Source: Alphaproteobacteria bacterium
Lineage (GTDB): Bacteria > Pseudomonadota > Alphaproteobacteria > SHNJ01
Direction of reading: 5' to 3'
NCBI GenBank assembly: GCA_004295055.1
Contig: SHNJ01000017.1
Span: forward strand, 1-64,000
Length of the DNA: 64,000 bases
Made by a program: the position numbers and the translations under genes. The notes beneath the pieces were generated by a model, which was not told where the DNA came from, searched no databases, and saw only the letters and a list, made by a program, of their open reading frames with translations. Within the stretch, counting starts at the first letter, position 1; the number at the start of each line of letters is the position of its first letter. Below are positions 6,431 through 63,917 of the stretch, one piece after another.

Positions 6431-8359
6431 ATGGCACGCGTTATCGGAATCGATTTAGGCACCACCAATTCTTGCGTCGCGGTGATGGAAGGCAAAACGC
6501 CAAAAGTCATCATCAACGTCGAGGGCGCGAACACCACCCCATCGCAAGTCGCATTTCTGGAGTCAGGCGAACGGTTGGTTGGGCAATCCGCAAAACGCCA
6601 AGCCGTGACCAATCCCGACAATACTTTTTACGCCGTCAAGCGTTTGATTGGCCGCAAATACGACGATCCAATCGTCAAAAAAGATTTATCTATGGTGCCA
6701 TATAAAATCGTCAAAGGCGATAATGGCGACGCATGGACGGAATCGCGCGGCAAAAAATACGCGCCGGAACAAATTTCCGGATTCATTTTGCAAAAAATGA
6801 AAGAAACCGCCGAAGCTTATTTGGGCGAAAAAGTTACTGAAGCGGTCATTACCGTTCCCGCTTATTTCAACGACGCGCAACGCCAAGCGACGCGCGATGC
6901 CGGCAAAATCGCTGGCCTAGAAGTTTTGCGTATCATCAACGAACCGACCGCCGCGGCGCTGGCTTATGGCATGGAGAAAAAAGCCACGGGCACGATCGCC
7001 GTGTACGATTTGGGCGGCGGTACGTTCGACGTATCGATTCTTGAAATCGGCGATGGCGTATTCGAAGTCAAGGCAACCAACGGCGACACGTTCCTTGGCG
7101 GCGAAGATTTCGACAAACGCATCATCGACTTTCTGGCCGATCAATTCAAAAAAGATCAAACGGTGGATTTGCGCAACGACAAATTGGCATTACAGCGTTT
7201 GAAAGAAGCGGCGGAAAAAGCCAAAATCGAGCTGTCGTCATCGACCGAAACCGAAATCAATTTGCCGTACATCACGGCCGATGCGTCGGGTCCAAAACAC
7301 TTAACATTGAAGCTGACCCGCGCGAAATTGGAATCCTTGGTCGAAGATTTGATCGAATCGACCATGGAACCATGCCGCAAAGCGTTGAAAGACGCTGGCG
7401 TTACCCCGTCCGATATCAACGAAGTGATTCTGGTCGGCGGTCAAACCCGTATGCCGCGCGTTGTCGAAGCCGTGAAAAAATTATTCGGCAAAGAACCGCA
7501 TCGCGGCGTGAATCCGGATGAAGTCGTTGCCGTCGGTGCCGCCATTCAGGCCGCCGTATTAAAAGGCGATGTCAAAGACGTATTGTTGCTGGATGTTACC
7601 CCATTGTCGCTCGGTATCGAAACGCTGGGCGGCGTGTTTACGCGTTTGATTGAACGCAACACCACGATCCCAACCAAGAAATCGCAAGTGTTCAGCACGG
7701 CCGAAGATAATCAAACCGCGGTAACCATCCGTGTGTTCCAGGGCGAACGCGAAATGGCGGCGGACAATAAATTGCTCGGCCAGTTTGACTTGATGGGCAT
7801 TCCGCCTGCGCCGCGCGGCGTTCCGCAAATCGAAGTCACCTTCGACATTGACGCCAACGGTATCGTCAGCGTGTCGGCAAAAGACAAAGCCACCGGCAAG
7901 GAGCAGCAAATCCGTATCCAGGCCACCGGCGGTTTGTCGGATGCGGATATTAAGAAAATGGTCGATGACGCCAAAGAACATGAAGCGGAAGACAAAAAAC
8001 GCCGCGCCTTGGCCGAAGCGCGCAACCAGGCCGAAGCCTTGATCAACAGTTCGGAAAAATCGCTGAAAGATTTTGGCGATAAAGTATCGGCGGATGAAAA
8101 GCGCGCCATCGAAGACGCGATTGCCGATCTGAAATCGGTCAAGGATGGCGAAGATGCCGCCGCGATTCAACAACGCGCCGAAAAATTGGCGCAAGCGTCC
8201 ATGAAACTGGGCGAAGCCATGTATAAGGCGCAGCAAACCGCCGAAGGATCGCCAACGGGCGATGCTGGCGCGGCTGGCGGCGCGGATGCAAGCAAACCGG
8301 ACGGCGCCGAAAAAGTCGTCGATGCGGAATTTTCGGAAGTAAAAGAAGATAAGCAGTAA
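6431..8359 (+). CDS. dnaK: Molecular chaperone DnaK (Hsp70)
   Basis: ATP-driven Hsp70 chaperone of the cytosol. The nucleotide-binding domain covers about residues 1-380, with [11 protein letters not shown] at the start, the [17 protein letters not shown] and [11 protein letters not shown] phosphate loops, and the linker [19 protein letters not shown]. The substrate-binding domain and helical lid follow, ending in an Ala/Gly/Asp-rich tail with a C-terminal EDKQ. Length 642 residues is standard. The AAGGAG ribosome binding site and heat-shock promoter lie upstream. The dnaK-dnaJ gap carries heptamer repeats. Confidence 0.99.
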
Positions 8360-8362
8360 TCA

Positions 8363-8429
8363 GTAGGCCGTAGACAGTAGACCGATAAGGTTTTTGTTTG
8401 CGGTCTACCGTCTATCGTATACGGTCTAC
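8363..8429. repeat. Inverted arms of degenerate 7-bp repeats between dnaK and dnaJ
   Basis: The left arm at 8363-8383 consists of GTAGGCC, GTAGACA and GTAGACC in tandem. After an 18-bp T/G-rich spacer, the right arm at 8402-8429 reads GGTCTAC, CGTCTAT, CGTATAC, GGTCTAC, the inverse unit. The right arm ends two bases before the dnaJ ATG, occupying the place of a Shine-Dalgarno. The same units recur at 62701-62805. Confidence 0.85.
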
Positions 8430-8431
8430 GA

Positions 8432-9562
8432 ATGTCCAAAATCGATTATTACCAGCTTCTCGAAATTGAACGCACCGCCGACGGTGCCTCGATCAAAGCC
8501 GCGTTTCGTAAAAAGGCGATGGATTGCCATCCCGACCGTCATCCCGGCGACAAAGAAGCCGAAGCCAAATTCAAACAATTAAACGAAGCCTATCAAGTTC
8601 TGTCCGACGATCAAAAACGCGCGGCTTATGATCGGTATGGCCATTCCGCCTTTGAACAAGGTGGATTTGGCGGTGCGGACGGATTCGGCGATTTCTCTTT
8701 CACATCGTCCTTTGCCGATATTTTCGAAGAAATGTTCGGCGATTTCATGGGTGGCCGCCAACGCGGTTCCACCGGCCGCGGCGCCGATTTGCGGTACAAT
8801 ATGGAACTTAGTTTAGAAGATGCGTTCCATGGCAAGGATACGCAAATTCGCGTTCCAGGTTCCGCCACTTGCAACGATTGCAACGGATCGGGTTCGGCCG
8901 ATGGTTCCGCGCCGGCGGCTTGTAATTATTGCCACGGCAGCGGCAAAATAAGATCCAATCAAGGATTCTTTATGGTGGAACGCACCTGCACCGCCTGTAA
9001 CGGTCAGGGCCAAGTGATCGCCAAACCATGTAAAACTTGTTCCGGCGCCGGGCGCGTGCGCAAAGAAAAAACTTTGGCGGTCAATATTCCCGCCGGCGTC
9101 GAAGATGGTACGCGTATTCGTCTTGCCGGCGAGGGCGAACCCGGCATGCGTGGCGGCAATGCCGGTGATTTATACATTTTTCTTGCCGTGCAACCGCACC
9201 GTTTTTTCAAACGCGATGGCGCGAATTTATTCGCCTCGATTCCAATTCCCATGACCACGGCGGCCTTGGGCGGACAGGTGGAAATTCCGACCATCGATGG
9301 CAAGATGCAGAAACTATCCATTCCCGCCGGCGCGCAATTCGGCCAGCAATTCCGGTTAAAGGGCCAAGGCATGAATATCATGCGCGCCAAATCGCGCGGC
9401 GATATGTTCGTCGATTTGCGCATTGAAACCCCAGTGCATTTGAATAAAAAGCAGCAGCAATTATTGAAAGAATTGCAAGACTCGCTGGGCGATAAATCGA
9501 CACCGGAATCCAGCGGGTTTTTTGATAAAATCAAAGATTTTATGGATCAAGACAGTAATTAA
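8432..9562 (+). CDS. dnaJ: Chaperone protein DnaJ (Hsp40)
   Basis: Hsp40 co-chaperone that delivers substrates to DnaK and stimulates its ATPase. The J domain is at residues 1-70 with the HPD motif (CHPDRHPGD), followed by a Gly/Phe-rich linker. The zinc-finger region has four CxxCxGxG-type repeats (CNDCNGSG, CNYCHGSG, CTACNGQG, CKTCSGAG), and the C-terminal substrate-binding domains follow. Length 376 residues is normal. No Shine-Dalgarno is visible because repeat DNA runs up to the start codon; translation may depend on dnaK. Confidence 0.98.
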   Translation: MSKIDYYQLLEIERTADGASIKAAFRKKAMDCHPDRHPGDKEAEAKFKQLNEAYQVLSDDQKRAAYDRYGHSAFEQGGFGGADGFGDFSFTSSFADIFEEMFGDFMGGRQRGSTGRGADLRYNMELSLEDAFHGKDTQIRVPGSATCNDCNGSGSADGSAPAACNYCHGSGKIRSNQGFFMVERTCTACNGQGQVIAKPCKTCSGAGRVRKEKTLAVNIPAGVEDGTRIRLAGEGEPGMRGGNAGDLYIFLAVQPHRFFKRDGANLFASIPIPMTTAALGGQVEIPTIDGKMQKLSIPAGAQFGQQFRLKGQGMNIMRAKSRGDMFVDLRIETPVHLNKKQQQLLKELQDSLGDKSTPESSGFFDKIKDFMDQDSN

Positions 9563-40437: not shown

Positions 40438-41450
40438 CCCCCTCCGACAATCAAAACGGCGATACCGCCGTTTCCACTTATTTGCAATTTGATGATAACC
40501 GTTTGCTGTCGATGCTGTTTGGCGAATACGACAAGTATATCAGCCGCATGGAACAGCAGTTGGGCGTCAGCGTCCTGGCGCGAGGCAATCAGATTTTAAT
40601 TTCCGGTTTGGTTGGTCCTGTGGAAATTGCCAAAACCGCGTTGAAAACTTTGTACAAGCGCCTTGAAAAAGGATTGATGATCAGCGTATCCGAAGTCGAT
40701 GCCGCCATGCGCATGGCAAGCGAATCTTCGACGCGCAAGCAATTTACCGACGAAGCGCGCAATGATGGCGCTGCAATCCGGACGCGGCGGAAACAAATAA
40801 CCGCGCGCACGCCAAAACAAGCCGAATATATGAAATTGCTGCAGGAGAATGATTTGACCTTCGGTTTGGGCCCAGCCGGTACCGGTAAAACATATTTGGC
40901 AGTCGCGATGGGTGTATCGTTGCTGATGGATAATAAGGTTGAGCGTATCGTATTGTCGCGCCCGGCCGTCGAGGCGGGGGAACGTTTGGGATTTTTGCCC
41001 GGCGATCTGCGCGAAAAAATCGATCCGTATTTGCGTCCGCTTTATGATGCTTTGTACGATATGATGCCGGCCGATCAGGTGTTGCGCCGCATTGCCAGCA
41101 ATGAAATTGAAATCGCGCCACTGGCATTCATGCGCGGACGGACTTTGTCCAATGCGTTCGTGATTCTGGACGAGGCGCAAAATACCACATCGGTGCAAAT
41201 GAAAATGTTTTTGACGCGCTTGGGCGAGGGATCGAAAATGGCCGTCACTGGCGATTTGTCCCAGGTCGATTTGCCGCGTGGCGTCCGATCCGGTCTCCGC
41301 GATGCGGCCGAAGCGCTGAAAGGCATTGAAGGCGTTGGTTTTTGTCAGTTTGCGGACGCGGATGTGGTGCGTCATCCGCTGGTTACCCGTATCGTTCGCG
41401 CCTATGCAAGTTTCGAGAAGAATATTTACGACAAGTCCGAATCGGCTTAG
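40434..41450 (+). CDS. PhoH-like ATPase (YbeZ)
   Basis: PhoH-family P-loop NTPase of 338 residues, usually linked to YbeY and ribosome or RNA quality control. An N-terminal KH-like region (about 40-85) precedes the ATPase with Walker A FGLGPAGTGKTYLAVAMG, Walker B AFVILDEAQNTT, and SRPAVEAGERLGFLPGDLRE. Start is TTG overlapping the miaB TGA, with AAGAGG before it. Despite the name, it is not shown to belong to the phosphate regulon here. Confidence 0.95.
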   Translation: MTPSDNQNGDTAVSTYLQFDDNRLLSMLFGEYDKYISRMEQQLGVSVLARGNQILISGLVGPVEIAKTALKTLYKRLEKGLMISVSEVDAAMRMASESSTRKQFTDEARNDGAAIRTRRKQITARTPKQAEYMKLLQENDLTFGLGPAGTGKTYLAVAMGVSLLMDNKVERIVLSRPAVEAGERLGFLPGDLREKIDPYLRPLYDALYDMMPADQVLRRIASNEIEIAPLAFMRGRTLSNAFVILDEAQNTTSVQMKMFLTRLGEGSKMAVTGDLSQVDLPRGVRSGLRDAAEALKGIEGVGFCQFADADVVRHPLVTRIVRAYASFEKNIYDKSESA

Positions 41451-41459
41451 TTGTTGATT

Positions 41460-42008
41460 ATGAAACCTAAAACCAAAAAAAGAAAAATCCGGCCCCGATC
41501 GTCTGTGAAGGCATATGTGATTTGTGATGTGGCCGGATGGAAAAAAATATCCGCCGTTGAATCTAAATGCCGCAAATGGGCCGCCGCAGCGGCCAGCGCG
41601 GTTTTAGGGGGATCGCGCGCCGAACTGACAATAGTTCTAAGCAATGACAAGTTATTGAAACGGCTGAATTGCGATTGGCGCGGAAAAAATAAACCGACCA
41701 ATGTTTTGTCTTTTCCAAATTATGACCGCGTTATTGTGAAGGCACTGCAAAAAAAACGCGGGGTAAAAGAGCCATTAATGCTGGGCGATGTGGCGATTGC
41801 CTTGGAAACCGTTAAGCGCGAAGCCAAGACCCAACATAAAACTATCGAAGCGCATTTGGCGCATATGGTGATTCACGGAACCCTGCATTTGCTGGGCCAC
41901 GACCATATGGTCCAAAAACAGGCTAAATATATGGAAACATTGGAAAAAAATATTTTGCGCCAATTCGGTTTTTCTAACCCATATGAATATGGTAAGGTGA
42001 AAAAATAA
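41460..42008 (+). CDS. ybeY: Endoribonuclease YbeY
   Basis: Metal-dependent endoribonuclease for 16S rRNA 3' maturation and ribosome quality control. The zinc-binding HGTLHLLGHDH motif with three His residues and TNVLSFPN are diagnostic. Length 182 residues, with a basic N-terminal extension of about 20 residues (KPKTKKRKIRPRSS). I use the ATG, preceded in frame by TTG codons that could also serve. Nine bases after phoH; conserved phoH-ybeY-corC order. Confidence 0.95.
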   Translation: MKPKTKKRKIRPRSSVKAYVICDVAGWKKISAVESKCRKWAAAAASAVLGGSRAELTIVLSNDKLLKRLNCDWRGKNKPTNVLSFPNYDRVIVKALQKKRGVKEPLMLGDVAIALETVKREAKTQHKTIEAHLAHMVIHGTLHLLGHDHMVQKQAKYMETLEKNILRQFGFSNPYEYGKVKK

Positions 42009-42011
42009 ATT

Positions 42012-42905
42012 ATGATCGATTCCACACCCTCGCAGTCGCTGGTATCCCTGTTTAAAAATTGGCTTTTGCGCAAAATTGGCCGCAGCAAGGCCGAACAGGA
42101 TCTGCGCGAAACTATCGAAGAAATCATCGAAGACCGTGTTGAGGAACAATCCCCAATCGCCGGGGATGAAAAAAAATTATTGGCCAATATTCTGCGGCTT
42201 TCGGGCGTAACGGTGAACGACGTCATGGTTCCGCGATCCGATATTATCGCGGTCGAAGCCAGCCTGCCATTTAACGATATTGTAAAGGCGGTGATCGAAT
42301 CCGGACATTCCCGTTTGCCGGTGTACCGGGAAACTTTGGATGATGTGATCGGAATTGTGCATATCAAGGATGTGTTTTCTTGCTATGCGCAGGAAAAATC
42401 CGCCGATCTGCACCGCTTGTTTTTGCCGCCTTTATTCATTTCGCCAAGCATGCGGGCGCTGGATTTATTATTGAAAATGCGGGTCACGCATAAGCATTTG
42501 GCGCTGGTGGTTGATGAATATGGCGGAACAAACGGTCTTGTCACCATCGAGGATTTGATCGAGGAAATCGTCGGCGAAATCGAAGACGAACATGATGTGG
42601 CGGAGGCGCCGAAATTAATGCCGCGCCCTGATGGAACGGTGTTTGCCGATGCGCGCGCGACGATTGAAGAATTCGAAGACTGGGCAGGCCCAATTTTGGA
42701 TGATGAGGAACGCGAAGAAATTGACACGGTCGGCGGACTTGTATTCGCCCTGATCGGCCGCGTTCCAGGGCGCGGTGAAATTGTCACCCATCCATCCGGA
42801 TTGGAATTTGAAATTATCGATGCAGATCCACGCCGTATTAAGCGGGTGCGGGTAAAGAAAACGCCGCTTGCCACGCCGGAATTGAAAAAAACCGCCGATG
42901 CTTAA
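42012..42905 (+). CDS. CorC/HlyC-type CBS-domain protein (YbeX-like)
   Basis: Soluble protein of 297 residues with two CBS domains (about residues 70-190, with VNDVMVPRSDIIAVEA and SGHSRLPVYRETLDDVIGIV) and a C-terminal CorC_HlyC domain (about 205-285). It lacks the membrane DUF21 domain, so it is the short YbeX/CorC form tied to magnesium or cobalt homeostasis and, by position, to ribosome metabolism and Lnt. It overlaps lnt by 8 bp. Confidence 0.93.
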   Translation: MIDSTPSQSLVSLFKNWLLRKIGRSKAEQDLRETIEEIIEDRVEEQSPIAGDEKKLLANILRLSGVTVNDVMVPRSDIIAVEASLPFNDIVKAVIESGHSRLPVYRETLDDVIGIVHIKDVFSCYAQEKSADLHRLFLPPLFISPSMRALDLLLKMRVTHKHLALVVDEYGGTNGLVTIEDLIEEIVGEIEDEHDVAEAPKLMPRPDGTVFADARATIEEFEDWAGPILDDEEREEIDTVGGLVFALIGRVPGRGEIVTHPSGLEFEIIDADPRRIKRVRVKKTPLATPELKKTADA

Positions 42906-44406
42906 TTTTCATCGCGATAGTATTTTACATCGCGCCGATAAAATCGTGCGGGCATCCGGCCTTAGAAAATATTTTTGTTTGTGGGCGCTTGGCGCAATCG
43001 CCGCGCTAGCCATGCCGCCATTATATTTTTTTCCAGGAATTTTGATCGGATACGCGGCTTTGTATGTATTGCTGGCGCGTTCCGGCAGTGCGCGGGAAGC
43101 GGCTTGGATGGGATTTTTCTTTCATCTTGGCTATTTTATGATCGGACTTTATTGGATAAACGCGGCGTTGCTGGTCGATCTTTCCTTTGCTTGGATGATT
43201 CCTTTGTGCGCGATTGGATTGCCGGCATTGCTGTCTTTATACGGGGCGTTGTTGGGGGGGGCCACCAAACTGACGGCTAAAAAATATTCTTTCGGTACCA
43301 TGCCCCACGCTTTCTGTTTTGTTGCGTTGTTCTTTTTGTGCGAATGGATTCGCGGACATGCTTTAACCGGGTTTCCGTGGAATTTGACAGGATATGGTTT
43401 TGGATTCAGCGATTATTTGGTGCAAACCGCATCGATCGTTGGCGCTTATGGTCTTGGCGCTATTGTCGCTTTTTTTTCAGTGGCGCTGGCTTGCTGGGTT
43501 TTGGGTTGTAAAAGATTGCTGGCCGCATCCGGCGTGTTATTGATTGCCATGGCTGCATTCGGTGTTTGGCGATTGCCAGCCGCGGCAATGGACACGGTGC
43601 CAGATGTACGACTAAGGTTGGTTCAAGGCAATATCGCCCAGGAATTGAAATGGGATCACAAATCAATTCAGAAAAATTTTTATAAATACCTTGATCTTTC
43701 CACGTTGCCGGCGGCTAAGCCGCCAACGCATATCATCTGGCCGGAAACGGCAGTATCTTTCTTGTTGGATAAGAATCCGGAAGCAATGGCCGCTATTCAG
43801 GAAATAGTGCCGGTAAATGGCGCTGTAATTCTGGGGGCGCCGCGCGTGGATTATGCAGACCCGTCGTCTCCCGATCCGGAAATTAAAAATATTTACAATA
43901 GCATTCTTGGAATTGACTCCAATCGTACTATATTATTTTCATACGATAAGTCGCATTTGGTGCCATTCGGCGAATATGTGCCGTTACCCGGATGGTTCGG
44001 TATAAAAAAATTGGTGTCGGGAATTTTCGATTATACTCCCGGTCCGGGACCGCAAACCGTAACGATTGATGGATTGCCGCCATTCAGCCCATTGATTTGT
44101 TATGAGATCATTTTCCCGGGACGAGTCACCGATGGTACCGGTCGCGCGAAATGGTTGTTGAATCTTACCAATGACGGTTGGTATGGCAACACCGCAGGAC
44201 CGTATCAACATTTGGCCGAAGCGCGCATGCGGGCGGTGGAAGAAGGTTTGCCCATCGTGCGTGTGGCGAATACCGGTATAAGCGCGGTAATAGATCCTTA
44301 TGGCAGAACTGTGGATCAATTGCCATTAGGCCAGGGCGGGATTCTGGATATTTCCTTGCCCCAATCGTTACCCACGGCAACCTTTTATACGAAAGTAATA
44401 AAATAA
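42898..44406 (+). CDS. lnt: Apolipoprotein N-acyltransferase
   Basis: Integral inner-membrane enzyme that adds the third acyl chain to lipoproteins. Six or so membrane helices occupy the first 200 residues, and the nitrilase-like domain follows. Catalytic Glu is in HIIWPETAVSF, the Lys region in DKSHLVPFGEYVPLP, and the Cys in PLICYEIIFPG; LLNLTNDGWYG is also typical. Length 502 residues is normal. Overlaps corC. Confidence 0.97.
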   Translation: MLNFHRDSILHRADKIVRASGLRKYFCLWALGAIAALAMPPLYFFPGILIGYAALYVLLARSGSAREAAWMGFFFHLGYFMIGLYWINAALLVDLSFAWMIPLCAIGLPALLSLYGALLGGATKLTAKKYSFGTMPHAFCFVALFFLCEWIRGHALTGFPWNLTGYGFGFSDYLVQTASIVGAYGLGAIVAFFSVALACWVLGCKRLLAASGVLLIAMAAFGVWRLPAAAMDTVPDVRLRLVQGNIAQELKWDHKSIQKNFYKYLDLSTLPAAKPPTHIIWPETAVSFLLDKNPEAMAAIQEIVPVNGAVILGAPRVDYADPSSPDPEIKNIYNSILGIDSNRTILFSYDKSHLVPFGEYVPLPGWFGIKKLVSGIFDYTPGPGPQTVTIDGLPPFSPLICYEIIFPGRVTDGTGRAKWLLNLTNDGWYGNTAGPYQHLAEARMRAVEEGLPIVRVANTGISAVIDPYGRTVDQLPLGQGGILDISLPQSLPTATFYTKVIK

Positions 44407-45122: not shown

Positions 45123-46340
45123 ATGATTTTCGCCCGCTCTCTCGCCAAAAAATTGCTGCCAGCCAATGAAACCGCCTTGAACGATTTCGTGTTTACTTCG
45201 GAATCCGTATCCGAAGGCCATCCTGATAAAATTTGCGATCGTATTTCCGATGCGATTCTGGATGCATTTATGCAGGCTGATCCGCAATCGCGCACCGGCA
45301 TTGAAACGCTGGCGACCACCAACCGCGTAATTTTGGCCGGCGAAGTGCGCGGCCCGGCATCGATCAACAATGCCGATGTGATGACCCATATTGCACGCGA
45401 GACGGTGCGTAAAATCGGTTACGATCAAGAAGGCTTTCACTGGCAACGCATGGACGTGCATTGTTATATCCATTCGCAATCGACCGATATTGCGCAAGGC
45501 GTGGATGCTGGCGGCGGCAAGGACGAAGGCGCTGGCGATCAAGGCATTATGTTTGGCTATGCTTGCAATGAAACCGACGATTTAATGCCGGCGCCGATTT
45601 ACTACGCGCATAAAATTTTGCGCACTTTATCCGAAGCGCGGCACAGCGGCCAATTGGCCGATTTGCGTCCGGACGCAAAAAGCCAGGTCAGCCTGCAATA
45701 TAAAAATGGCCAGCCGACGGGATCTACCTGCGTCGTGGTATCGACCCAACATAAAGACGGCTTGCCAACTCATGCGGTGCGTGAAATGGTTCGCCCAATT
45801 GTACAAAGCGTTCTGCCCGAAGGCTGGATGTGCGATGACAAAGATTTTTATGTCAATCCCACCGGTCGTTTCGTGATCGGCGGTCCTGACGGCGATGCGG
45901 GTTTGACTGGCCGGAAAATTATCGTCGATACATATGGCGGCGCGGCCCCGCATGGCGGCGGCGCGTTTTCGGGCAAGGATCCGACCAAGGTCGATCGCTC
46001 GGCTGCGTATGCCGCGCGTTATATGGCGAAAAACGTCGTTGCGGCCGGATTGGCGGATAAATGCTTGATCCAATTATCCTACGCTATCGGCGTCTCGCAT
46101 CCGTTGTCGGTTTATATCAACACATTCGGCACCGGCCAGGTGGATGAAGTGAAATTGGAAAAAACCTTGCGCGAGTTGGTAAATTTAACGCCACGCGGCA
46201 TCCGAACCCATTTGCAATTGAATCGTCCTATTTACGAACGCACGGCATCGTATGGCCATTTCGGCCGCGATCCGGAACGCGATGGCGGATTTTCTTGGGA
46301 AAAAACCGATCTGGTCGACCAGCTAAAACGCGCGTTTTAA
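45123..46340 (+). CDS. metK: S-adenosylmethionine synthetase
   Basis: Makes SAM from methionine and ATP. N-terminal signature [20 protein letters not shown], the [12 protein letters not shown] loop and the [19 protein letters not shown] motif with catalytic Lys residues are all present. Length 405 residues includes a 20-residue N-terminal extension before the usual start; no other in-frame ATG is close. AAGGA lies eight bases before the ATG inside a predicted hairpin, suggesting translational control. Confidence 0.98.
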
Positions 46341-46341
46341 A

Positions 46342-46355
46342 GGGTTTAGGGTTTA
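46342..46355 (+). repeat. Left heptamer arm: two GGGTTTA units
   Basis: GGGTTTA twice in tandem, starting one base after the metK stop. It is the inverse of the CCCTAAA array at 46754-46788, so the two flank a segment of about 400 bp. Confidence 0.7.
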
Positions 46356-46400
46356 CGGATTTTCCTTGTATAAAATATATTAAATTTTACGCTGAGGCGC

Positions 46401-46787
46401 ATGGCTTCCTCGCGCCCTATAACTCAGCAACATCCTTGCGGTTGCGCCGTTTCTTGCGCCGCTTTCGTCGCGGCGCGGCGGACGGGATCCGATTACGCTT
46501 ACGAAAAATTCAATGGCAAAAAATCCCGGCACCGGAATTTTTTGCGCCGCCCCGGGATCATCATTTATTTGCGCGAAAATTCGGGCGACCGGATCGGTCA
46601 TTATTACGCCCGGGCCGCTCTTGGCTGGATGGACTCCTGGGCCAATTATCCAATGCTTGCTGCAAAAGGCGGCATTATAAAAAAATTGCCTGCCGCCCCG
46701 CTTTGGATTATGTTTCCCCGCGACTGGATCATGGAACCGCGCGCAAATGCCATCCCTAACCCCAAAACCCAAAACCCTAAACCCTAA
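46401..46787 (+). CDS. Doubtful small ORF between metK and trmB
   Basis: A 128-residue frame with a plausible middle part (GIIIYLRENSGDRIGHYYAR, then ALGWMDSWANYPMLAAKGG). The Cys/Arg-rich start looks random and the C-terminus (NPKTQNPKP) is read from the heptamer repeat. GAGG is three bases before the ATG. A 14-bp near-perfect hairpin with flanking A and T runs at 46516-46545 looks like a metK terminator and falls inside it, which argues against a functional gene. It may be a remnant. No family recognised. Confidence 0.25.
   Translation: MASSRPITQQHPCGCAVSCAAFVAARRTGSDYAYEKFNGKKSRHRNFLRRPGIIIYLRENSGDRIGHYYARAALGWMDSWANYPMLAAKGGIIKKLPAAPLWIMFPRDWIMEPRANAIPNPKTQNPKP
46516..46545 (+). terminator. 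Possible terminator hairpin downstream of metK
   Basis: GCAAAAAATCCCG pairs with CGGAATTTTTTGC around a four-base loop with one mismatch. The A run on the 5' side and T run on the 3' side are typical of a bidirectional rho-independent terminator, about 175 bp after the metK stop. Confidence 0.4.
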
Positions 46788-47493
46788 ACTATACGGTCGG
46801 CGCAAAGGCCGTCCGTTGAGTTTGGATTTAAAACAGGCAGTCGAATCGGCCAGCGGACAATATTTTATCGATAAAGATAATATCGCCTCCGCCGCGCCAG
46901 CCGGCATAGATCCAAAATTTTTTTTTAAAATCCTCTCGCCTCTCGCCTCTCGCCCTCCCACTTCCTATTGGCTCGAAATCGGTTTTGGCACCGGCGATTT
47001 TCTCGCCGGACAAGCCGCACAACATCCGGATATTAATATTATTGGCTGCGAGGCATTTGAGAACGGCATCGCCAAAACTATGCAAAAATTATTGGCGCAT
47101 AAAGTTTCCAATGTCCGCATTTACCCGGATGACGTACGGCATTTGCTGCCGAAATTGCAGGATGGGTGTTTAGACCGGGTATTTTTGCTGTTTCCCGACC
47201 CTTGGCCGAAAAAACGCCACGCCAAGCGGCGTTTTGTAAATCCGGATAATGTACGCGAATTGGCGCGGGTGATAAAAAAGGGCGGCGAGTTTTGGGTGGC
47301 GACCGACGATCCCACATATCAGGAATGGGTGCCGGAACAAATGTCGGCGCAAAGCTGGTTTCAACCCAAAAACCCGCCCACAGACGGGTTTTGGCATTTA
47401 ACCGAACCACAGCCTTGGGTTGAAACCAATTACCAGAAAAAGGCCAGACGCGCTGGACGAATCCCTAAATTTGTTGTTTTTTCAAATAGTTAA
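46747..47493 (+). CDS. trmB: tRNA (guanine-N7-)-methyltransferase
   Basis: SAM-dependent enzyme making m7G46 in tRNA variable loops. Diagnostic motifs are LYGRRKGRPLS near the N-terminus, WLEIGFGTGDFLAGQA (SAM-binding), and VFLLFPDPWPKKRHAKRRFV (active-site loop), plus GGEFWVATDDPTY. The N-terminus (SLTPKPKTLNPK) is encoded by CCCTAAA-type repeats. The segment before the SAM motif (SPLASRPP) is encoded by CCTCTCG repeats and looks like an extra linker. No good ribosome binding site precedes the ATG; the true start could be inside the repeat. Length 248 residues. Confidence 0.93.
   Translation: MPSLTPKPKTLNPKLYGRRKGRPLSLDLKQAVESASGQYFIDKDNIASAAPAGIDPKFFFKILSPLASRPPTSYWLEIGFGTGDFLAGQAAQHPDINIIGCEAFENGIAKTMQKLLAHKVSNVRIYPDDVRHLLPKLQDGCLDRVFLLFPDPWPKKRHAKRRFVNPDNVRELARVIKKGGEFWVATDDPTYQEWVPEQMSAQSWFQPKNPPTDGFWHLTEPQPWVETNYQKKARRAGRIPKFVVFSNS
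46754..46788 (+). repeat. Right heptamer arm: five CCCTAAA-type units
   Basis: CCCTAAC, CCCAAAA, CCCAAAA, CCCTAAA and CCCTAAA in uninterrupted 7-bp register. Read in the trmB frame it encodes Pro, Lys, Thr and Asn. Inverse of the GGGTTTA pair at 46342-46355. Confidence 0.85.
46932..46952 (+). repeat. Three perfect CCTCTCG heptamers inside trmB
   Basis: Exact 7-bp unit three times (21 bp), followed by a decayed CCCTCCC. It lies in the trmB coding frame just before the SAM-binding motif. Gain or loss of one unit would shift the frame. Confidence 0.85.
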
Positions 47494-61586: not shown

Positions 61587-62756
61587 TTATGAATGGGTTA
61601 TGGGGGTAATTTGAGCGTTTTGGACGGCTAAAATTTGCGCCGATTTCCAATCGCCAAACAGCGCCGCATCCGCTCCTGAAACAAAGGCCTGAATACCTAG
61701 ATTCTCGATCACATTCGCCAGGGCGGCGCGGTGCCGGTCGTCCAAATGCGCCGCCAATTCATCCAGCAATAAAATCGGCGTCTTGCGTTTTTCGGTTATC
61801 AGCAAACGGCTATGGCCCAGAATGATGGCGATTAGGGCAATTTTCTGCTCGCCGGTCGAACAATCCCCCGCCAAACGGTTTTTGCCGATATGAAAGGCGG
61901 TGAAATCATCGCGTCCCGCGCCTTCGCGGGTAGATCTAACCAGCCGGTCACGTTCGCGCGAATCCTTCAGCCGGTCTTGTAACAAAGATACGGCATTATT
62001 ATCGCCCTCAGCCGCAATATCCGCCCAAATCTTGCTTTGTAAATCGAGGCGCAGTTTGGGGAAATCCGGGCCGAATTGGCCGATATGATCGTTAAGTCTT
62101 TCGATATATTCCGCCCGGGCGCGGGATATGGAAATGCTGTTTTCGGCGATTTGCCGTTCCAGTGTACCGATCCATTCTTGGTCGATGCGGCCAAAACTAA
62201 GCAGCCTCAACCGTTCCCTCTGCGCTTTTTCCAGGGCTTGGATATGCTGCAAATGCACCGGGTAAAACGCATAAACCAACCGGTCCAAAAATCGTCTGCG
62301 TTCCGACCTGGATTCAACAAATAACCGGTCCATCGCCGGGGTCAGCCAGGCGATGGTGCAATATTCCGCCAAATCGGTTTGCGCGGATTTTTTTTCGTCG
62401 ATTTGAATTAACCGTTTGCTGCGCGGGGCGGCGCTGTCGGTGCCGGTGCCAATACGGTGGGTGGTGTGCGGCGTCGTTAAATCCGCCACCACGGACCAGC
62501 CAGATTTAATAGATGACGCCAATGCCAACTCGCCCATTTTGGCATTGCGCAAACCACGCCCCGGCGATAACAAAGAAATCGCTTCCAGAATATTGGTTTT
62601 CCCGGCGCCATTCGCACCAGTTAAAATTACCGAACGACCATCTAGGTGTAGATTAAGATCGGCATAATTGCGGAAGTTGGATAATCGCAAAGCGCTTATC
62701 GTAGACCGTAGGCCGTGGACCATAGACGGATTTTGTTGCGGTTTTGTATGAACCAT
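61587..62756 (-). CDS. recF: DNA replication and repair protein RecF
   Basis: SMC-like ATPase that helps load RecA at gaps. ALRLSNFRNYADLNL opens the conserved part, Walker A is TGANGAGKTNILEAI with LLSPGRGLR, and the C-terminal signature and Walker B are CSTGEQKIALIAIILGHSRL and PILLLDELAAHLDD. The first 20 or so residues, including both candidate ATG starts (62756 and 62723), lie in or against heptamer-repeat DNA and look unlike other RecF proteins. No ribosome binding site is evident at either. Length up to 389 residues. Confidence 0.95.
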   Translation of the reverse strand: MVHTKPQQNPSMVHGLRSTISALRLSNFRNYADLNLHLDGRSVILTGANGAGKTNILEAISLLSPGRGLRNAKMGELALASSIKSGWSVVADLTTPHTTHRIGTGTDSAAPRSKRLIQIDEKKSAQTDLAEYCTIAWLTPAMDRLFVESRSERRRFLDRLVYAFYPVHLQHIQALEKAQRERLRLLSFGRIDQEWIGTLERQIAENSISISRARAEYIERLNDHIGQFGPDFPKLRLDLQSKIWADIAAEGDNNAVSLLQDRLKDSRERDRLVRSTREGAGRDDFTAFHIGKNRLAGDCSTGEQKIALIAIILGHSRLLITEKRKTPILLLDELAAHLDDRHRAALANVIENLGIQAFVSGADAALFGDWKSAQILAVQNAQITPITHS

Positions 62757-62805
62757 ATAATCAATCGGTTTGTTTTCGGTCTACTGCTTACAGTCTACCG
62801 TCTAC
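62701..62805. repeat. Inverted arms of degenerate 7-bp repeats between recF and dnaN
   Basis: The left arm (62701-62728) reads GTAGACC, GTAGGCC, GTGGACC, ATAGACG. The right arm (62778-62805) reads GGTCTAC, TGCTTAC, AGTCTAC, CGTCTAC. A 49-bp spacer contains GGTTTGTTTT just before the right arm, resembling GGTTTTTGTTTG at the same place in the dnaK/dnaJ copy. The left arm codes for RecF residues and the right arm reaches the dnaN stop codon. Confidence 0.85.
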
Positions 62806-63917
62806 TAGACCCGCATCGGCATCAGCACGTATAAGCTGGTCGTATCGGCCGGATCTTGAATGATCGTTGGGCTGGCGCCATCCGATAATTTGAATTGCGC
62901 GCCTTCGGAATCGATTTGCTGTGCTATATCCAGTAGATACCGGGAATTGAAACCGATTTCGATCGCATCCGAATCGTATTTCACTTCGATTTCCTCGGTC
63001 GCTTGGCCGGATTCGGCCGATTGTGCCGATAATGTTAAGGCGCCGGCATTCAGACTGAGTTTGATCGCGCGGGATTTTTCCGAAGAAATGGTGGCCACGC
63101 GGTCAACTGCCTCGGCAAACGATTTGCGATCAACGATCAGAATTTTATCGTTATCGGCCGGAATGACGCGTTCATAATCCGGGAATGTGCCATCGATCAG
63201 TTTCGAAGACAGCACGATGCCATCCAAGGCGAAACGGATCTGGGTTTCTGACAAAGAAATCTCGACAGTCGTGGAAACTTCTTCGATTAGTTTACGAATC
63301 TCGCCAATGGTTTTGCGCGGAATGATAACACCCGGAATTTTCGCGGCGCCTTCCGGCAATGGCATTTCGATACGCGCCAAACGGTGGCCGTCGGTCGCAA
63401 CGGCGCGCAATACCGGCACATCGTTCGATTTGGTCGCATGGATATAAATGCCGTTCAGGTAATAACGGGTTTCGTCCTGCAGAATCGCAAAACGGGTGCG
63501 ATCGATCAGGCCGCGCAATTCCGACGCCGGCAATGCAAATTTATGCAGCAATGGTTTGTTATCGTAAGCCGGGAAGTCGCCAACCGGCAATGTGCCCAGC
63601 GTGAAACGGGAACGGCCGGAGCGAATGGTCAATTGCGCATCTTTCAAAGATAATTCAATTTGCGCACCTTCGGGCAATTTACGCACGATTTCATACAGCG
63701 TATGGGCCGGTGCGGTGATGGAGCCATTTTGCGAAATCGATGCTGGCGCGCCTTCGATAATGGTCAAGTCCATATCGGTTGCGGTTAGAAATAATTTATC
63801 TTGTTCCGCTTTCAAAAGAACGTTCGATAAAATTGGAATGGTGTTGCGTTTTTCGACGACGGTTTGCACATGCGCCAAGGCTTTTAATAATGCGCTGCGT
63901 TCAATCGATAATTTCAT
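62805..63917 (-). CDS. dnaN: DNA polymerase III beta sliding clamp
   Basis: Ring-shaped processivity clamp. Three similar domains of about 120 residues; MKLSIERSALLKALAHVQTV opens the first, and the last domain ends with the conserved YVLMPMRV. DGTFPDYERVIP and ATDGHRLARIEMPLP are family marks. Length 370 residues is normal. First gene seen of dnaN-recF(-gyrB); dnaA would be expected a short way beyond the right edge. Confidence 0.98.
   Translation of the reverse strand: MKLSIERSALLKALAHVQTVVEKRNTIPILSNVLLKAEQDKLFLTATDMDLTIIEGAPASISQNGSITAPAHTLYEIVRKLPEGAQIELSLKDAQLTIRSGRSRFTLGTLPVGDFPAYDNKPLLHKFALPASELRGLIDRTRFAILQDETRYYLNGIYIHATKSNDVPVLRAVATDGHRLARIEMPLPEGAAKIPGVIIPRKTIGEIRKLIEEVSTTVEISLSETQIRFALDGIVLSSKLIDGTFPDYERVIPADNDKILIVDRKSFAEAVDRVATISSEKSRAIKLSLNAGALTLSAQSAESGQATEEIEVKYDSDAIEIGFNSRYLLDIAQQIDSEGAQFKLSDGASPTIIQDPADTTSLYVLMPMRV

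Follow-up and report, generated by a model that had tools for sequence, protein, structure and literature searches.

The dnaK-dnaJ junction of an alphaproteobacterial genome carries a palindrome of tandem heptamers that is probably one copy of a dispersing element tolerated at gene edges. Elements with this layout are scattered over unlinked gene junctions, lie close to gene borders with a nearly constant polarity, and have been gained and lost between related genomes; the dnaK-dnaJ copy has strong potential to fold. The window (the whole 64,000-nucleotide stretch of DNA analysed) belongs to a genome, here called G000, of 1.95 Mb in 37 contigs that is 99% complete; its DnaJ has no more than 61% identity to those of named genomes. 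We compared it with G001, the only same-family relative available, which is fragmentary and 57% complete and has about 61% protein identity to G000.

Two inverted heptamer arrays occupy the dnaK-dnaJ junction

The element comprises two arrays of heptamers in opposite orientation, separated by a short loop and placed almost flush with the genes on either side.

6431..8359, plus strand: dnaK (HSP70), an ORF identified by Pfam
8363..8383, plus strand: left arm, GTAGGCC GTAGACA GTAGACC, beginning 3 nt past the dnaK stop
8384..8401, no strand: spacer (loop) of 18 nt, GATAAGGTTTTTGTTTGC, read from the window sequence
8402..8429, plus strand: right arm, GGTCTAC CGTCTAT CGTATAC GGTCTAC, ending 2 nt 5' of the dnaJ ATG
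8432..9562, plus strand: dnaJ, an ORF identified by Pfam

The two middle heptamers of the right arm (CGTCTAT and CGTATAC) are variants, and the arm is followed by GA and then by the dnaJ ATG at 8432. A first-pass annotation of this DNA had described the arms, the 18-nt spacer and the 2-nt distance to the dnaJ ATG, all of which we confirmed at 8363-8429. Its suggestion that the region could form a hairpin also held, as the predicted RNA fold of the dnaK-dnaJ spacer has an energy of -32.8 kcal/mol (z = -5.5), equalled by 0 of 200 shuffles.

Searching the window for GTAGACNGTAGAC with at most two mismatches gave 13 matches, all of them at dnaK-dnaJ and dnaN-recF, where dinucleotide shuffles expect 0.46 +/- 0.76. 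This shuffle expectation, together with the pattern searches and period scan reported below, ruled out a chance origin of the heptamer arrays. Rfam 15 returned nothing above the gathering score for the element, with only a sub-threshold miRNA match, and we therefore rejected membership of a known RNA family.

Related arrays occur at unlinked junctions

A second copy, at 62700-62806 between dnaN and recF (RecF and DnaN identified by Pfam), has the same two-arm layout and a similar GGTTTGTTTTCGGTC spacer end, in agreement with the likeness first seen between these junctions.

62700..62727, minus strand: opposite arm of the dnaN-recF element, found by pattern search; within the N-terminal region of the recF ORF if translation starts from the ATG at 62756
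62728..62771, no strand: spacer of the dnaN-recF element, read from the window sequence, containing the upstream recF ATG
62772..62806, minus strand: arm after the dnaN stop, GTAGACG GTAGACT GTAAGCA GTAGACC, found by pattern search, with the TAG overlapping the first unit

Judged from the position of the upstream ATG, the recF ORF may begin in the dnaN-recF spacer; an alternative start, TTG, lies just past the arm at 62700..62727.

Across G000, pattern searches found five unlinked GTAGACN sites, with genes named by Pfam: dnaK-dnaJ, dnaN-recF, dut-SH3, ssb-gyrA and secG-pyrG, the last of which is a single arm. The further copies that the first-pass annotation had proposed to look for were thus present at ssb-gyrA, dut-SH3 and secG-pyrG, and its picture of a dispersed family at gene ends was supported. 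Relaxing the pattern to GTNNACN brought in GTGGACN/GTGAACN sites, while a control pattern gave 0. These extra sites lie between a divergent pair of genes that we named by eye as quinone-oxidoreductase-like and DUF1192-like, and upstream of each of two tRNA genes. GTNNACN arrays of four units were confined, across 240 alphaproteobacterial genomes, to G000, G001, G124 and G076 (one match).

The window also holds heptamers of a second unit family.

46341..46356, plus strand: two AGGGTTT units straight after the stop of ORF 45123-46340
46754..46794, plus strand: array of CCCAAAA/CCCTAAA at the end of the small ORF 46401-46787, whose stop codon it supplies

It is possible that the AGGGTTT units are a distant left arm of the 46754 array. 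The GGGTTTA/CCCTAAA heptamers at these two places are like the plant telomere repeat. Elsewhere, at 46931-46955, three perfect CCTCTCG units stand apparently within the coding ORF 46747-47493.

We then counted arrays without reference to any unit, by an ab initio autocorrelation scan that sampled 404 kb of G000 and 206 kb of G001 (610 kb). The scan found 45 intergenic period-7 arrays (20 in G000 and 25 in G001) against 3 for the other periods from 4 to 13 together, period 14 being a harmonic of 7. Other alphaproteobacteria had 4 such arrays in 638 kb (39 stretches). The units include GTAGACN, GTGGACN, GTTGACN, AGCGTAT, GGTATCN/GGTGTCN, GGGTTTT, AAGTACC, GTCGAGA and CTAACGA, and most of those in the census, GTAGACN among them, lack GGG. 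Related units recur at unlinked loci, where 256 pairs of arms had units within distance 1, compared with 74 after the units were shuffled, a count that takes in both arms of one element. The GTAGACC unit by which the family was originally defined does not delimit it, as many other units have the same layout, and the first-pass annotation had caught only a minor portion of the phenomenon. Two-arm arrays with still other units were found in G014 (CAGATGT, after a tRNA), G088, G011 and probably G017. The CAGATGN two-arm elements of the distant alphaproteobacteria G014 and G088 are at L244 (G014:C19) and at L243/L247 (G088), one of them directly after the 3' end of a tRNA.

Pairing, border placement and polarity are common to arrays with different units

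For 62% of the 42 arms in bounded gaps, an inverted partner (12 of 14) was found in the same gap, compared with 1.8% for size-matched other gaps; 14 of the 42 arms were unpaired, single-arm cases. The distance from arm to gene border has a median of 4 nt, versus 12 nt under random placement in the same gap, with borders taken from a simple gene-calling script, so that start codons are approximate. In 27 of 28 paired arms the G-rich strand runs inward from both borders (left arm G-rich in 16/16, right arm C-rich in 11/12).

Some elements contain others with differing units. At L139/L166 (G001:C33), the L139 palindrome of AGCGTAA units spans to two divergent starts and has a GTTGACG/CTAACGA palindrome in its loop, and at L175 a GTAAGCA palindrome is nested in an AGCGTAT palindrome. 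REP-like intergenic palindromes enclosed by heptamer arms are present at L192:6084-6250 and L184:1361-1586, as though other elements could land in the loop.

Copies within one unit family are 73-90% alike, and two arms from a single element resemble each other no more than arms taken from separate elements do, which is not usual after a recent transposition. The loops of recF and dut, the two closest copies, have weak homology (P = 0.0125). Concerted evolution of an element's two arms was not seen and was rejected.

Orthologous junctions gain and lose elements

We compared junctions between G000 and G001 using reciprocal best hits (61 pairs, median identity 61%). Three successive junctions that are empty in the window are filled in G001.

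41447..41460, plus strand: phoH-ybeY junction, empty here (gap of about 0-9 nt); in G001, an AGCGTAT two-arm element
42006..42014, plus strand: ybeY-corC junction, empty here (3 nt); in G001, a GGTTAAC element
42895..42908, plus strand: corC-lnt junction, overlapping here; in G001, a gap that begins with a GTCGAGA-type array

The window has 0, 3 and -8 nt at these junctions, and G001 fills all three with three different units; its likely ybeY start codon is inside one array, and the last residues and stop of ybeY are inside the next. An element stands at tuf-rpsJ in G001 alone and at secG-pyrG in G000 alone, and at rpsJ-rplC both genomes have one, with a shared unit and a discernible core. At one divergent junction (L218/L209), G001 has AAGTACC arms and G000 has CCCAAAC arrays. 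Both genomes have GTGGACN arms at the oxidoreductase/DUF1192-like junction, whose second gene is inverted between them. A comparison of L146 with L165 placed this inversion exactly at the GTGGACN element, suggesting that the DUF1192-like gene was turned by recombination between the inverted arms.

From this comparison of orthologous junctions, we conclude that elements are gained and lost and that some keep their unit over genus-level time. Some can be old and stable, since rpsJ-rplC keeps its unit in both genera. Fine insertion borders are unreadable at the completeness and protein identity of G001, and its contig breaks within dnaJ. Base-for-base conservation of the spacers was not seen, in line with the dispersal that the first-pass annotation had proposed.

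The arrays could instead have arisen in place, by polymerase slippage that favours 7 nt and hairpin-mediated template switching from arm to arm, with no mobile element involved. Unit number does vary between arms, single arms do exist, and many bacteria have heptamers as their most frequent long simple repeats, with a polymerase cause proposed (cited in PMC4679880). However, recurrence of a unit at unlinked loci is above expectation, arms resemble each other no more within elements than between them, two-arm elements stand at junctions whose orthologous gap measures about 0 nt, and heptamer elements are nested in others with other units. Such a local origin is, in our judgement, unlikely.

Arms contribute to the ends of neighbouring genes

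The stop codons of dnaN, dut and secG are each a TAG that runs into the first array unit. The SH3 protein encoded 3' of dut has an arm-coded N-terminal stretch that is absent from its G001 homologue. At L147 (G000:C25:21165-21328), a GTGGACA arm at the end of an mnmA-like ORF seems to lengthen the C-terminus, and the opposite arm is a few bases short of a tRNA gene.

The dnaJ gene in the window has no Shine-Dalgarno sequence, and the first-pass annotation had the element replacing it. This did not hold up: a 4-mer Shine-Dalgarno precedes only 43% of G000 genes, starts flush with arms have one in 5 of 16 cases, with no clear difference from the genome, and among 52 dnaJ genes from other alphaproteobacteria a similar simple rule found one in only 6.

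The dnaK-dnaJ spacers of other alphaproteobacteria are mostly 60-180 nt long, and 86% of 51 have an RNA fold with z < -2, versus 35% of the co-directional gaps in G000. Their hairpins are unrelated to the heptamer element. By analogy with these spacers, the dnaK-dnaJ element most likely serves as an intercistronic hairpin, either in dnaK 3'-end protection or in setting the dnaK/dnaJ expression ratio. That a hairpin is present in this spacer of other alphaproteobacteria might also mean that the element is an ordinary intrinsic terminator or attenuator with an incidental heptamer look. This is exceedingly improbable, because the hairpin has no U-run 3' of it, its stem being followed by GAATG, and because the sequence is 7-periodic and common to unlinked junctions, whereas other dnaK-dnaJ spacers are not generally 7-periodic. 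As a full explanation, a terminator or attenuator is contradicted by the shared copies elsewhere.

We also weighed a regulatory network, in which the arrays would be binding sites of an RNA- or DNA-binding protein (a translation or nucleoid regulator) and would be selected at gene borders. It would suit arrays flush 5' of starts and 3' of stops, as well as the rpsJ-rplC unit and core kept in both genera, and it has been proposed earlier for TAACTGA (PMC4679880) and for the paired repeats of Geobacter (PMC2700814). We doubt it nonetheless, as the many dissimilar units have no shared motif obviously readable by one protein, essential-operon junctions have or lack an element or differ in unit, and the neighbouring genes have no evident common function.

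Search for the machinery of dispersal

The mobility suggested in the first pass was supported indirectly, by presence and absence at orthologous junctions, but we found no transposition product or enzyme for it, nor did we identify a duplicated target site, a fixed end of the element or a transposase. The IS200/RAYT-type transposase family PF01797 had 0 members in G000 (99% complete) and 0 in G001 (57% complete), and mobilisation by RAYT/IS200 was rejected on this ground.

Each of the two genomes has a single reverse transcriptase. That of G000 (L294, G000:C6:83573-84082) is a retron type VI enzyme with an upstream HTH gene. That of G001 (L292, G001:C33) lies beside an Avd-like ORF and a repeated segment resembling a variable region and, judged by eye, probably belongs to a diversity-generating retroelement. 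No reverse transcriptase was found in G011 and G017, which carry arrays. With two enzymes of different kinds and two carriers that have none, reverse transcriptase was rejected as the shared machinery.

These results bear on templated end addition, in which a telomerase-like or otherwise templated activity would extend the two 3' ends of an intergenic chromosome break with G-rich heptamers before the ends are joined. This scheme predicts the polarity seen in 27 of 28 paired arms, a common unit for both arms of an element, single arms and nesting. It would also explain why the period is exclusively 7, the unit being dictated by a template that changes. Bacterial reverse transcriptases that make tandem repeats exist (DRT10, PMC12632851), and some units equal plant-type telomere repeats (AAACCCT). 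Against it stand the kinds of reverse transcriptase found and their absence from G011 and G017, and the polarity is equally explained by inheritance from one ancestral palindrome. We consider templated end addition very unlikely.

Discussion

We favor the view that the dnaK-dnaJ element belongs to a family of small non-coding dispersing palindromes, each with a short loop between inverted arrays, two in number, of about 3-5 heptamers. The unit sequence would vary from element to element, with the period of 7, the two arms and the inward G-rich strand staying fixed. Copies would spread genome-wide, by transposition or another form of copying, and persist almost solely at gene junctions; elsewhere long palindromes, often bearing stops, would be purged by selection from a genome that is 88% coding. 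At junctions the arms could provide neighbouring genes with stops, starts or terminal residues and form an intercistronic RNA hairpin, and the dnaK-dnaJ copy may have taken over a hairpin role held by unrelated forms in other alphaproteobacteria.

Several families of small repeats invite comparison. The STRRs of heterocystous cyanobacteria are short intergenic tandem 7-bp repeats, mainly in direct arrays with few fixed units. The elements described here resemble them as short intergenic 7-bp tandem repeats and are set apart, by the general description of STRRs, in that STRRs mainly form direct arrays. REP/REPIN sequences have a conserved, fixed-length consensus together with a Y1 transposase (PF01797, RAYT). 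They too are small, palindromic, intergenic and dispersed, but here PF01797 is absent, arm identities in one unit family are 0.73-0.90, and loops differ. Rickettsia palindromic elements are alphaproteobacterial, form longer families with a conserved consensus, and can enter coding sequence in frame. That entry may be comparable to the N-termini of SH3 and recF (the latter having an alternative start); against their consensus, in a general description, our elements have no clear shared sequence beyond the 7-nt unit.

A close likeness is to Xanthomonas, where GGGAATC heptamers, preferably in four units, form 70-75 convergent inverted pairs per genome in intergenic regions (Rehm et al. 2015, PMC4692102). 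They have a strong bias to lie near or overlapping stop codons and are generally not linked to mobile elements (PMC4692102). Sister species mostly have them at the same junctions, with no pattern or a strongly mutated one in 16% (PMC4692102). Both types consist of intergenic tandem heptamers of about four units, convergent, with the G-rich strand inward. Xanthomonas, however, has one G-run unit per genome, studied as a G-quadruplex former, and mostly keeps its junctions between species, whereas here there are many units, mostly without quadruplex-type G-runs, and junctions gain and lose elements.

In Geobacter metallireducens, class 3 comprises eight pairs of MTYCTGA arrays, each array having five units and facing a partner on the other strand across a loop, in intergenic regions such as that between proBA (PMC2700814). 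The same paper did not identify the paired sites in G. sulfurreducens, the sister species, and reads them as sites of a global regulator (IHF/HU). By that description, class 3 shares with our elements the paired inverted heptamer arrays of variable spacing. It differs in having one heptamer, MTYCTGA, which is absent from our unit census; classes 1-2 are not heptamers, and the available text treats the sites without a gene-border or polarity analysis. The TAACTGA arrays of marine Beggiatoaceae are direct and flush with starts, usually without a Shine-Dalgarno sequence (MacGregor 2015, PMC4679880), sometimes overlap ORF ends, and occur at unrelated and essential genes (PMC4679880). They have a single unit in direct order with one inverted case; our elements are mostly inverted pairs, and TAACTGA is not among their main unit clusters.

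The layout is thus already known in single-unit form in Xanthomonas and Geobacter, and these precedents contradict in part the first impression that no such family existed in this setting. In the literature searched, which was thin on cyanobacterial STRRs and prokaryotic simple repeats, we did not find descriptions of a unit-independent class, a multi-unit repertoire, polarity across units, nesting or junction turnover. Our results suggest that the GGGAATC arrays of Xanthomonas, the MTYCTGA arrays of Geobacter and perhaps TAACTGA form one class, set by layout and not by sequence. Rate and mechanism would be directly testable in close strains of carrier species. If such a class is real, a common and as yet unnamed bacterial generating process would be remodelling essential genes at their ends, along with the codons at which they start and stop and the intercistronic hairpins.
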